Source of the DNA: Erysipelotrichaceae bacterium
Lineage (GTDB): Bacteria; Bacillota_I; Bacilli_A; Erysipelotrichales; Erysipelotrichaceae
Direction: 5' to 3'
Assembly: GCA_017442805.1 (NCBI GenBank)
Contig: JAFRZA010000033.1
Coordinates: 62,001 to 126,000 of the forward strand
Length of the DNA: 64,000 nt
Part shown: piece after piece, positions 7,764 through 10,630 of the stretch
Layout of the letters: every line of letters begins with the position of its first letter
Numbering within the stretch: position 1 is the first letter of the stretch
The notes under the pieces: model-generated
Database searches by the model: none
Seen by the model: only the letters and a program-made list of their open reading frames with translations
Told to the model about the DNA's origin: nothing
Program-made: the position numbers and the translations under genes

Positions 7764-7792
7764 TTGCATAAGGGTAGAATAGGTGTTAAAGT
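7764..7792 (+). promoter_or_regulatory. Promoter of the methionine transporter operon
   Basis: -35 TTGCAT (7764-7769), a 17-nt spacer and -10 TAAAGT (7787-7792) with an extended -10 TG at 7784-7785. Predicted transcription start is near 7799, 17 nt before the leader ORF. Confidence 0.65.
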
Positions 7793-7815
7793 AATGGTAA
7801 CAGGAGAGTATCAGT

Positions 7816-7890
7816 ATGATCAGACATTCCGTTATGATGATGGCTATGGCTATGGACATGCGCATGCGCGTGTCATTTGATCATGACTGA
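7816..7890 (+). CDS. Methionine-rich leader peptide of the met transporter operon
   Basis: 24 codons from ATG at 7816 to TGA at 7888-7890, with a good ribosome site (AGGAGAG, 7-nt spacing). Residues 7-17 read MMMAMAMDMRM, so 7 of 11 codons are Met; with the start there are 8 Met in 24. The ORF sits directly before an antiterminator/terminator pair and upstream of metQNI-type genes. Its stop codon overlaps the 5' arm of the antiterminator. The peptide itself probably has no function; the run of Met codons would measure charged Met-tRNA by ribosome stalling, as His, Trp or Leu codons do in classical leaders. Confidence 0.85.
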   Translation: MIRHSVMMMAMAMDMRMRVSFDHD

Positions 7891-7936
7891 TATGTTCTCA
7901 GAAGCATCTTGACTGACAGATAACCGGGAACATATC
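7889..7936 (+). promoter_or_regulatory. Antiterminator hairpin of the met attenuator
   Basis: GATATGTTCTC (7889-7899) pairs with GGGAACATATC (7926-7936): 11 bp with one G-U, enclosing 26 nt. The 3' arm takes bases 7926-7929 from the terminator's 5' arm, its whole loop, and the first two bases of its 3' arm, so the two hairpins exclude each other. A ribosome finishing at the stop codon (7888-7890) would cover the 5' arm; one stalled in the Met run (7834-7866) would leave it free. Confidence 0.8.
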
Positions 7937-7950
7937 CCGGTTTTATTTTT
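7922..7950 (+). terminator. Attenuator terminator of the met operon
   Basis: A perfect 8-bp stem AACCGGGA/TCCCGGTT (7922-7929 with 7935-7942) and 5-nt loop ACATA is followed by TTATTTTT. It lies between the leader peptide and the transporter genes. Confidence 0.9.
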
Positions 7951-7969
7951 GTGAAAGGGGGAAACAACC

Positions 7970-8047
7970 GTGCTTAAGCTGTTAACCAAAGCCAATTACC
8001 ACAACAAGCGAATGTGCCGTCAGGGACAGGAGATATCAGACAGTTGA
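7970..8047 (+). CDS. Possible small ORF between met attenuator and metQ-like gene
   Basis: 25 codons from GTG, with a strong GGGGG-containing ribosome site 8 nt upstream, ending TGA 41 nt before the lipoprotein gene. The product would be basic and polar with one Cys and matches no family I know. It may be a translated spacer, a second control ORF, or chance. Apart from this and the leader, the 7697-8088 gap holds no other gene. Confidence 0.3.
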   Translation: MLKLLTKANYHNKRMCRQGQEISDS

Positions 8048-8088: not shown

Positions 8089-8937
8089 ATGAAAAAGACT
8101 TTAAATACCATTCTTGTAATCTTATTAGTACTGCTTACCCTGGCCGGCTGCGGCAACAAGACCAGCCAGATCACCATCGCCATCCCCAATGACACCACCA
8201 ACGAAGCCAGAGCCCTGCTGCTTCTGGAAGCCAAGGGATTCATTGAGGTAGATGACAAGGCCGGCATTCAGGCCACCATCGCCGACATCACTTCCAACCC
8301 CTACAACATCAAGTTCAATGAAGTTGAAGCCGCTCAGATCCCCAACATCCTGCAGGACGTCGACTTCGCCATCATCAATACCAACTACGCCATCGCCGCC
8401 GGCCTGAATCCGGCTCAGGACGCCCTCGCTCAGGAAGGCGCCGGCTCAGCCTATGCCAACATCCTGGCCGTTAAGGAAGGCCGCGAGAACGATCCGCTGG
8501 TTCTGGCTCTGGTCGCTGCTCTGGAAAGCCAGCAGGTCGCTGACTACATTACCAAGACCTATGCCAAGAGCGTTGTCTCAACGGTTGAAAACCCGACAGA
8601 CGGCTACAGCGCCGCCCTCGATTACGCTGCCCTGGCCGGCAAGACCATTACCGTCGCCGCTTCTCCGACTCCGCATGCCGAGATCCTGGCAGTCGTCAAG
8701 GAGATCCTGGCCGCCAAGGACATCAACCTGGTCGTTCAGGAATACACTGACTACGTCATTCCCAACAACGTCGTTGAAGACGGCACGCTCGATGCCAACT
8801 ACTTCCAGCACGTTCCCTATCTGGATGACTTCAATAAGGAAAACGGCACGCACCTGGTTTCCGTAGCCGCCATCCACGTTGAGCCGCTGGGAATCTACGG
8901 AGGCAAGCAGAAGAGCCTGGACGTCATTGGTAAGTAA
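8089..8937 (+). CDS. metQ: Methionine-binding lipoprotein, MetQ/NlpA family, circularly permuted
   Basis: 282 aa. Residues 1-20 are a lipoprotein signal peptide ending LAGC with lipidated Cys21, so it is anchored outside the membrane and delivers methionine to MetNI. Residues 28-165 match what is normally the C-terminal half of MetQ (ITIAIPNDTTNEARALLLLE, VDFAIINTNYA, AGLNPAQDAL, then the final-helix region). Residues 185-278 match the normal N-terminal half (ASPTPHAEIL, EYTDYVIPN, LDANYFQHVPYLDDFN, VEPLGIYGGKQKSLD). Both halves are complete and joined by a linker at about 166-184, so this is a domain-order swap, not a truncation. Start: ATG 8089 after AAAGGAG; the upstream start at 8014 would bury the signal peptide. 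It is first structural gene of the operon, three bases before metN. Confidence 0.9.
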   Translation: MKKTLNTILVILLVLLTLAGCGNKTSQITIAIPNDTTNEARALLLLEAKGFIEVDDKAGIQATIADITSNPYNIKFNEVEAAQIPNILQDVDFAIINTNYAIAAGLNPAQDALAQEGAGSAYANILAVKEGRENDPLVLALVAALESQQVADYITKTYAKSVVSTVENPTDGYSAALDYAALAGKTITVAASPTPHAEILAVVKEILAAKDINLVVQEYTDYVIPNNVVEDGTLDANYFQHVPYLDDFNKENGTHLVSVAAIHVEPLGIYGGKQKSLDVIGK

Positions 8938-8940
8938 GCC

Positions 8941-9945
8941 ATGATCAGACTTGTAGACCTATCGAAGACATTTACATCCGCTCAGGGAACCGTTGAGGCC
9001 CTGAAGAACATCAACATAACCATCGAAGACGGCGACGTTTTCGGTATCATCGGCATGTCCGGCGCCGGCAAGAGCACGCTGATCCGCTGCATCAACATGC
9101 TGGAAAGACCGACGGAGGGAACGGTGTTCATCGACGACACCGACCTCTCCCTGCTCAGCAAGAGAGAACTGCGCAGGGTCAGAAGCCAGATCGCCATGGT
9201 CTTCCAGAACTTCAATCTGCTGATGCAGAAGACGGCTCTGCAGAACGTCTGCTTCCCGCTGGAGATCGCCGGCGCGGCGAAGAAGGACTGTGAGGAAAAG
9301 GCCAGGCAGCTGCTTAGGCTGGTTGGACTGGAGGATAAGGAAAGCGCCTATCCGGCTCAGCTGTCCGGCGGTCAGCAGCAGCGCGTGGCCATTGCCCGCG
9401 CCCTGGCGACTGATCCGAAGGTGCTGCTGTGCGATGAACCGACCAGCGCGCTGGACCCCAACACTACCAATTCGATCCTGGATCTGATCCGGGACATCAA
9501 CAACAAGCTCAACATCACCGTCATCGTCATCACTCACCAGATGAGCGTCGTTGAAAGCATCTGCAAGAACGTCGCCATTCTGGACAACGGCGAAGTCGTG
9601 GAGCAGGGCGCGGTCGGCGAAGTGTTCGCCCAGCCCAAGACCCGGGCGGCAAGAGCCCTGGTCTATCCGGAAAGCAGCCAGGAAAGCGCCATCTCGCTGG
9701 AAGGTCAGAAACTGATAAGAGTTGTCTTTAACGGCGGAGAGGCGACCAGCGAACCGCTGATCGCCACCATGGCATCACGCCACGGCATCCTGGCCAACAT
9801 CGCCTACGCTTCCACCCGGACGATCAACGGCCGGGTATACGGCTCGATGTTATTGGGCATTGAGGAAGACAAGATCGAAAAGGCCCTGGCTTTCCTGACG
9901 GAAAGCGACGGCATCACGGTTCAGGAGGTAAGCGACAATGGTTGA
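8941..9945 (+). CDS. metN: Methionine ABC transporter ATP-binding protein
   Basis: 334 aa. The ATPase domain covers residues 1-235: Walker A GMSGAGKST near 38, Q-loop VFQNFNLL, signature LSGGQQQR near 141, Walker B VLLCDEP with catalytic Glu, H-loop ITHQ. The C-terminal 90 residues form a NIL (ACT-like) domain (IRVVFNGG to the end), which in E. coli MetN binds methionine and inhibits transport. The operon therefore has two likely methionine controls: attenuation and transinhibition. It begins three bases after the binding-protein gene. Confidence 0.95.
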   Translation: MIRLVDLSKTFTSAQGTVEALKNINITIEDGDVFGIIGMSGAGKSTLIRCINMLERPTEGTVFIDDTDLSLLSKRELRRVRSQIAMVFQNFNLLMQKTALQNVCFPLEIAGAAKKDCEEKARQLLRLVGLEDKESAYPAQLSGGQQQRVAIARALATDPKVLLCDEPTSALDPNTTNSILDLIRDINNKLNITVIVITHQMSVVESICKNVAILDNGEVVEQGAVGEVFAQPKTRAARALVYPESSQESAISLEGQKLIRVVFNGGEATSEPLIATMASRHGILANIAYASTRTINGRVYGSMLLGIEEDKIEKALAFLTESDGITVQEVSDNG

Positions 9946-10630
9946 GTACAGTGAATTAAGCGAAGCCTGGGAGATCGTGCGCACGCAGTTCCCCCTGGCC
10001 ATCTGGGAAACCGTCTACGTTACCTTCCTGGCTACCCTGTTTGCGGTGATCATCGGCCTGCCGTTAGGCGTGCTGCTGGTTACCGGCGACAAGGACGGCA
10101 TCAGGCCGCTGCCTTCCTGGCTGATGAAGCTGATCAATGTCGTCATCAACCTGCTGAGGTCGGTGCCCTTTCTGATCGTCATCATCGTCGTCTTCCCGCT
10201 GACCCGCCTGATCATGGGCACGGCGGTCGGAACGGCAGCTTCGATCGTTCCCCTGACCGTAGCTTCCTTCCCGTTCATCGCCCGGCTGGTGGAAAGCAGC
10301 CTGAGGGAAGTCGACCCCAACGTCATCGAAATGGCGCAGAGCGCCGGAGCGGACAGCTGGCAGATCATCACCAAAGTGCTTCTCCCCGAAAGCGTCCCCT
10401 CGCTGGTTGCCAACATCACCATCGCCCTGACCACCATTCTGGGCTATACCGCCACTTCCGGAGCCATCGGCGGCGGCGGACTGGGAAAGATCGCGATCAC
10501 CTACGGCTATTACCGTTACAAGTATCTGATCATGATCTTCGCGGTGATCCTGCTGATCGTGCTGGTGCAGATCATTCAGAGCAGCGGAACCAGACTGGCA
10601 AACGCTCTGGATCACCGGTTAAGAAAGTAA
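9938..10630 (+). CDS. metI: Methionine ABC transporter permease
   Basis: 230 aa with about five to six membrane helices and the EAA-type coupling loop EMAQSAGADSWQIITKVLLPE (about residues 131-151, given as position and order). The GAIGGGGLG stretch after the loop is typical of MetI. It overlaps metN by 8 nt with its ribosome site (AGGAGG) inside metN. Together MetQ, MetN and MetI make a D/L-methionine importer. Operon end is marked by the terminator at 10634. Confidence 0.95.
   Translation: MVEYSELSEAWEIVRTQFPLAIWETVYVTFLATLFAVIIGLPLGVLLVTGDKDGIRPLPSWLMKLINVVINLLRSVPFLIVIIVVFPLTRLIMGTAVGTAASIVPLTVASFPFIARLVESSLREVDPNVIEMAQSAGADSWQIITKVLLPESVPSLVANITIALTTILGYTATSGAIGGGGLGKIAITYGYYRYKYLIMIFAVILLIVLVQIIQSSGTRLANALDHRLRK

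Follow-up and report, generated by a model that had tools for sequence, protein, structure and literature searches.

The window analysed here, a stretch of 64,000 nucleotides from an Erysipelotrichaceae bacterium, carries the methionine import genes metQ, metN and metI on its forward strand at 8089–10630, preceded by a short methionine-rich open reading frame (ORF) and an intrinsic terminator. An earlier note made from the sequence alone had placed a MetQNI-type operon here, as is found, and had read the region upstream as a ribosome-mediated methionine attenuator. The features of the locus are as follows.

7764–7792, + strand: candidate promoter (TTGCAT, 17 nt, TAAAGT), read from the sequence, missed by a stricter consensus scan and tentative
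7802–7806, + strand: Shine–Dalgarno sequence (AGGAG) of the leader ORF
7804–7899, + strand: predicted anti-antiterminator hairpin (7804–7822 region with 7878–7899), from the predicted fold and own-versus-foreign pairing (z = 5.8, 32 loci)
7816–7890, + strand: Met-rich leader ORF, MIRHSVMMMAMAMDMRMRVSFDHD and a stop codon, with the top Met density among the short ORFs of the window and kept in 7/7 genus genomes
7834–7866, + strand: Met run, predicted stall site, in which Met columns persist and intervening residues drift
7855–7874, + strand: 8-bp hairpin in the Met run, candidate pause hairpin of the predicted fold only
7889–7899, + strand: antiterminator 5′ arm, pairing with 7926–7936, with coevolution (32 loci) and a constant spacing from the Met/Cys run
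7922–7951, + strand: intrinsic terminator, stem 7922–7942 plus T tract (terminator scan; −12.4 kcal/mol)
7926–7936, + strand: antiterminator 3′ arm, common to the terminator (pairing, terminator scan, coevolution)
7970–8047, + strand: second leader-like ORF (GTG start), MLKLLTKANYHNKRMCRQGQEISDS, with homologues (short ORFs) upstream of metQ, of metY and of a cysteine synthase
8089–8937, + strand: metQ, circularly permuted methionine-binding lipoprotein (structure match, AlphaFold model)
8941–9945, + strand: metN, ATPase
9938–10630, + strand: metI, permease

The leader is a translatable short ORF of 24 codons with a ribosome site, and base for base it is the one that the earlier note had described. 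Seven Met fall within the eleven residues MMMAMAMDMRM, the highest Met density among 1034 short ORFs on both strands of the window (the runner-up has five in eleven), and none of ten Markov surrogates of the window exceeded four. The 157-nt leader RNA folds more stably than 200 of 200 shuffles (z = −4.0). Neither this leader peptide nor its relatives described below matched a Pfam or NCBIfam family.

Downstream of the leader, two mutually exclusive structures are available to the transcript. The antiterminator pairs GATATGTTCTC (7889–7899) with GGGAACATATC (7926–7936) in 11 pairs including one G–U, and its 5′ arm overlaps the final two bases of the leader stop codon at 7888–7890. The terminator, located by scan between the leader ORF and the first gene, is AACCGGGA-ACATA-TCCCGGTT at 7922–7942 followed by a T tract, and bases 7926–7936 belong to both structures; each of these points agrees with what had been claimed from the letters alone. 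The earlier note had proposed folding both states, and the predicted energies are −11.9 kcal/mol for the antiterminator and −12.4 kcal/mol for the terminator. Because the two are nearly isoenergetic the outcome would rest on kinetics, and the antiterminator is complete 6 nt before the terminator. In a third predicted pairing (−38.5 kcal/mol) the 7804–7822 region binds 7878–7899, so that both the leader's start codon and the antiterminator arm are sequestered as long as the leader goes untranslated, and this predicted anti-antiterminator completes the classical three-state design. The palindrome noted earlier within the Met run appears in the predicted fold as a hairpin of 7855–7862 with 7867–7874.

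Conservation of these parts was examined by locating metQ in each of the seven genus genomes and comparing the upstream regions. A Met-rich leader and a terminator precede metQ in 7/7, one leader being cut by a contig end, and the run of Met codons ahead of metQNI is retained in each. The aligned runs (MMMAMAMDMRM, MMMDMMMDMRM, MMMDMMMNMGM, MMMDMMMDMGM and MMMAAMDMPM) keep their Met columns while the residues between change, which is the pattern of conserved Met codons amid drifting sequence that the earlier note had expected of relatives. The antiterminator arms vary jointly, GATATGTTCTC/GGGAACATATC of the window standing as GTCTGATAATC/GGTTATTGGAC in another locus of the comparison (L004). 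The pattern ATGATGATGNNNATGNNNATG, run over 196 genomes of the family, mostly matched other DNA, and the 30 loci examined held no further leader with a terminator; a second match in the window's own genome overlies an mgtE-like gene and was rejected as another leader. A second pattern, CGAATGYG, was dropped as too short to inform.

Outside the genus, a Met-rich leader with a terminator and no T-box was found in three relatives: before canonical metQ at L061 and at L062, and directly upstream of a canonical metN-metI-metQ at L087. A reversed-sequence control of this comparison gave no match of a Met leader with a terminator. A scan of the genus MetQ alignment against one genome per species yielded 80 loci, mostly from Clostridia metagenome-assembled genomes, and of the 72 clostridial loci offering 350 nt or more of upstream sequence, 27 have metQ preceded by a leader ORF enriched in Met or in both Met and Cys; an example, L131, reads MKKFDLTANTMMEMCMCMCCMCMDFCVQNSDKFSISEIA. 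An intrinsic terminator was detected downstream of nearly all 27. Two more leaders (L208 and L211) lie upstream of metY, whose product, from its sequence, we take to be an O-acetylhomoserine sulfhydrylase. In the loci examined the leaders precede methionine import or synthesis genes only, and their peptides are unalignable beyond Met/Cys content. By sequence the window leader is no lone oddity: related leaders recur in many gut Firmicutes, across Erysipelotrichia and Clostridia, and in Clostridia most combine Met with Cys.

Two observations stand beside this survey. A weaker Met-containing leader (beginning MTRAMMKYYSMCNCKQ) with a terminator-like hairpin and T tract precedes a canonical metQ without a T-box at L063 (genome G061), and it was left out of the leader count. 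A TGCTT stretch immediately 5′ of the terminator stem recurs at the clostridial loci L128, L131, L145, L150, L157 and L185.

Whether the arms coevolve was assessed over 32 loci by pairing each arm with its own and with foreign terminators, every combination being given equal search freedom. Own-arm/own-terminator pairing came to 820 as against 690.6 for foreign combinations (sd 17.0; z = 7.6, 0/20000 permutations), a figure that kinship among loci may inflate, as it may the z of 5.2 for clostridial loci alone. The Met-run segment, taken as a control arm, gave z = −0.6, and the start-region pairing of the anti-antiterminator gave z = 5.8, again possibly inflated by kinship. Duplex energies set against dinucleotide shuffles (median z about −0.8) were too blunt, since long internal loops allow any arm to pair, and were replaced by this test, which also superseded a first stricter pairing score that was weak as well. 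An outer helix showed both-side changes in 18 cells versus 5.5 in shuffles; this 5-bp helix was hand-picked, is biased to pairing and is secondary, and weight is placed on the automatic tests of pairing and spacing. The compensatory changes that the earlier note had looked for in relatives are thus present, both in own-versus-foreign pairing and as both-side changes.

The spacing of the parts is informative as well. Between the last Met/Cys codon of the run and the start of the automatically found arm lies a median of 18 nt (IQR 14–24). The position of that arm relative to the stop codon varies widely, with starts between 56 nt upstream and 10 nt downstream of it; in nearly all loci the arm lies at the stop or before it. 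From the stop to the start of the terminator the distance is 27.5 nt (IQR 24–31). These run–arm and stop–terminator distances, read from the sequences, are what a switch governed by a stalled ribosome should show: a stall at the run would free the arm, and a ribosome that has come to the end of the leader, or close to it, would cover the arm.

Known methionine sensors offer a point of comparison at the same operon. Among 60 further genomes of the family and order whose metQ upstream regions were scanned, 48 carry a T-box scoring above the gathering threshold at the metQ operon. All seven T-box alignments inspected (six relatives and one clostridial locus) have AUG at the specifier position, set within GAAnAUGG, so that sensing of methionyl-tRNA is to be expected at metQNI. 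Only 2 of 40 scanned loci of the clostridial MetQ set carry a T-box. Genomes of the genus hold 9–13 T-box matches each, and those of the window's genome sit elsewhere, with no match to RF00230 in the window. SAM riboswitches occur in six of the seven genus genomes and one (RF00162) precedes metK in the window's genome; none matched by Rfam lies in the window or at metQNI. As judged from these sequences, one tRNA-charging sensor, the leader peptide or the T-box, replaces the other at the metQNI operon within the same order.

The operon itself has an unusual first gene. Residues 29–163 of MetQ match 111–249 of structure 4ib2 and residues 184–281 match 10–107, such that the C-terminal half of an ordinary MetQ comes first, and a sequential fold search aligns MetQ structures over about one half only. 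The AlphaFold model built from 49 sequences is confident, with a pLDDT of 91 as against 52 from six. This permuted MetQ is common to the genus, to G008, to L120 and to the 80 mostly clostridial loci (L121–L200), and it occurs with the leader, with a T-box (L120, L160 and L170) or with neither.

The gap of 146 nt between terminator and metQ contains the second short ORF. Its family (7970–8047 of the window and L201–L215) shares the consensus LVRANFRFGRM(C). Each aligned copy encodes the Arg-Met pair as CGA-ATG, and in nine of ten clostridial genomes searched the family lies before metQ, O-acetylhomoserine sulfhydrylase or cysteine synthase. No Pfam or NCBIfam family matched it, and on sequence it looks like a sulfur-regulon leader peptide. 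Three loci with a canonical metQ and neither T-box nor Met-run leader (L065, L066 and L069, in G064, G069 and G063) have a tiny ORF just upstream of metQ with a (CGA)ATG-TGY/CGA-like motif (MTRMRMPSWGN.., MKRMRMPVGG.., MSKGDMCI), which may be the second leader on its own. Inverted motifs of CCTAC/GTAGG type repeat near the −35 and the start at L202, L203, L205, L209, L210, L211 and L214 (for example ACCTACTAAAGAAGTAGGC at L202), and at these clostridial sulfur-gene promoters they are likely a repressor operator acting on top of the leader.

There is good reason to think that the window leader is a ribosome-mediated transcription attenuator that senses the charging of elongator methionyl-tRNA, joined in its clostridial relatives by cysteinyl-tRNA; we put the probability at roughly 0.87. 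From the parts, their conservation, mutual exclusivity and spacing we infer stalling at the Met codons, antitermination and induction of metQNI. When charged Met-tRNA is scarce the ribosome would stall in the Met run at 7834–7866 without its 3′ edge reaching 7889, which would leave 7889–7899 free to pair with 7926–7936 before the terminator completes and let RNA polymerase continue into metQNI. When Met-tRNA is plentiful the ribosome would reach the stop at 7888–7890 and cover the 5′ arm, and the terminator would form; at loci where the arm lies deep in the coding part, it would presumably be covered en route to the stop and not at the stop. With no ribosome on the leader, the 5′ arm would be taken up by pairing with the start region, again leaving the terminator to form. 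This is the attenuator that the earlier note had proposed, now supported by conservation, coevolution and geometry, with methionine as the signal to which it would respond. Attenuation needs close coupling of transcription and translation, which is disputed for some Firmicutes (B. subtilis). Induction may also fail in severe starvation, because a lack of methionine should make initiation slower too, and a leader that goes untranslated is predicted to end in termination. A more tentative reading, somewhat doubtful on present evidence, is of a two-input regulon in which Met-plus-Cys leaders, stalled by either uncharged tRNA, stand over metQNI and metY in Clostridia and Erysipelotrichia, are evolutionarily interchangeable with the Met T-box, and are stacked on the second conserved leader peptide (RANFRFGRM type), which would read another sulfur signal.

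The same RNA switch could be driven by an arrest peptide, the nascent Met/Cys-rich chain stalling the ribosome, perhaps together with methionine or SAM, such that tRNA charging is not the signal. Arrest peptides are known from antibiotic-resistance leaders, and the RNA geometry is compatible with any stall at the run. They usually require specific residues, however, whereas the residues between the Met drift freely and nothing aligns beyond Met/Cys content; moreover, Cys substitutes for Met across the clostridial leaders, as tRNA sensing of sulfur amino acids predicts, and we regard an arrest peptide as unlikely. Alternatively the Met-rich peptide might itself be functional, for example in metal binding, with a constitutive or incidental terminator. 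Met-rich and Met/Cys-rich peptides can bind copper, but such a role leaves the coevolving antiterminator, the two fixed spacings and the placement before methionine genes unexplained, and it seems highly improbable.

Repeated AUGs and a sequestered start might instead report initiator fMet-tRNA or folate status and not elongator Met-tRNA. The start region does belong to the anti-antiterminator hairpin, and a methionine-linked initiation model has been suggested for the streptococcal fthC uORF (PMC11109978). Reduced initiation should nevertheless favour the terminator, which is the wrong sign for an importer; the fixed distance of the arm from the end of the Met/Cys run would be needless, and Cys is mixed into many leaders, which together make initiation sensing very unlikely. 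A degenerate T-box, SAM riboswitch or other metabolite-binding RNA beside a chance short ORF might be imagined, given the T-boxes at the same position in most relatives. Neither the window nor most of the leader loci scanned match an Rfam family, though, and relatives keep the leader as an ORF that codes for Met; this explanation is barely credible.

Attenuators of his, trp, leu, ilv and phe are classical in enterobacteria. Like the window leader they have three states with an anti-antiterminator, a stall at a codon run and release at the stop; they differ from the window family in amino acid, in that the stall codon AUG is here a start codon too, and in that the antiterminator arm is often in the coding part, spaced from the run. 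Predictions of His leader-peptide attenuators exist for Erysipelotrichales, for Peptostreptococcaceae and for the Bacillus cereus group (PMC9413887), and one for a His leader ahead of hisS/hisZ in bacilli (PMC2965389). These share with the window leader a Firmicutes host, a codon run, a terminator, an antiterminator and exchange with T-boxes at the same genes, but they use 3–5 consecutive His, where the window family uses Met or Met plus Cys before import and metY genes. Branched-chain attenuators of Listeria, Staphylococcus and Corynebacterium (PMC5864092, PMC5794164, PMC10272879) are likewise Gram-positive leader-peptide attenuators, of other amino acids and operons.

Nearer in chemistry is the cysteine uORF before cysS in Rhodobacterales, uORFC-8-2 (PMC8632094), which resembles the window leader in its sulfur amino acid, stall codons and terminator and differs in having tandem Cys only, in an alpha-proteobacterial host and before a tRNA synthetase gene. 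The Met T-box (RF00230) before metNIQ shares the operon, the presumed signal (Met-tRNA charging) and control of termination, but its RNA binds tRNA directly without translation, and it is absent from the window. The Streptococcus fthC uORF, with its terminator, is proposed to respond indirectly to methionine (PMC11109978); it is similar in uORF, terminator and methionine link and differs in acting via initiator tRNA or initiation rate and in serving a folate gene, and in the excerpts available no Met run is described. Actinobacterial attenuators have been reported with no methionine case among them (PMC1262725). A full-text search of open-licence papers found no description of a methionine leader-peptide attenuator, in keeping with the earlier note, which knew of no well-established example. 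The design itself is that of a ribosome-mediated attenuator by the features tested, and the novelty is the specificity for Met or for Met plus Cys.

The leader provides a conserved, many-species example of the leader-peptide design serving methionine, and methionine with cysteine in Clostridia; such attenuators may have been overlooked because the stall codon doubles as the start codon. It also indicates that T-box and leader-peptide sensors substitute for each other at one operon. In Erysipelotrichia and Clostridia transcription and translation are probably closely coupled, a point still debated for Firmicutes, and the leader makes it testable how a cell distinguishes a shortage of elongator from one of initiator Met-tRNA.
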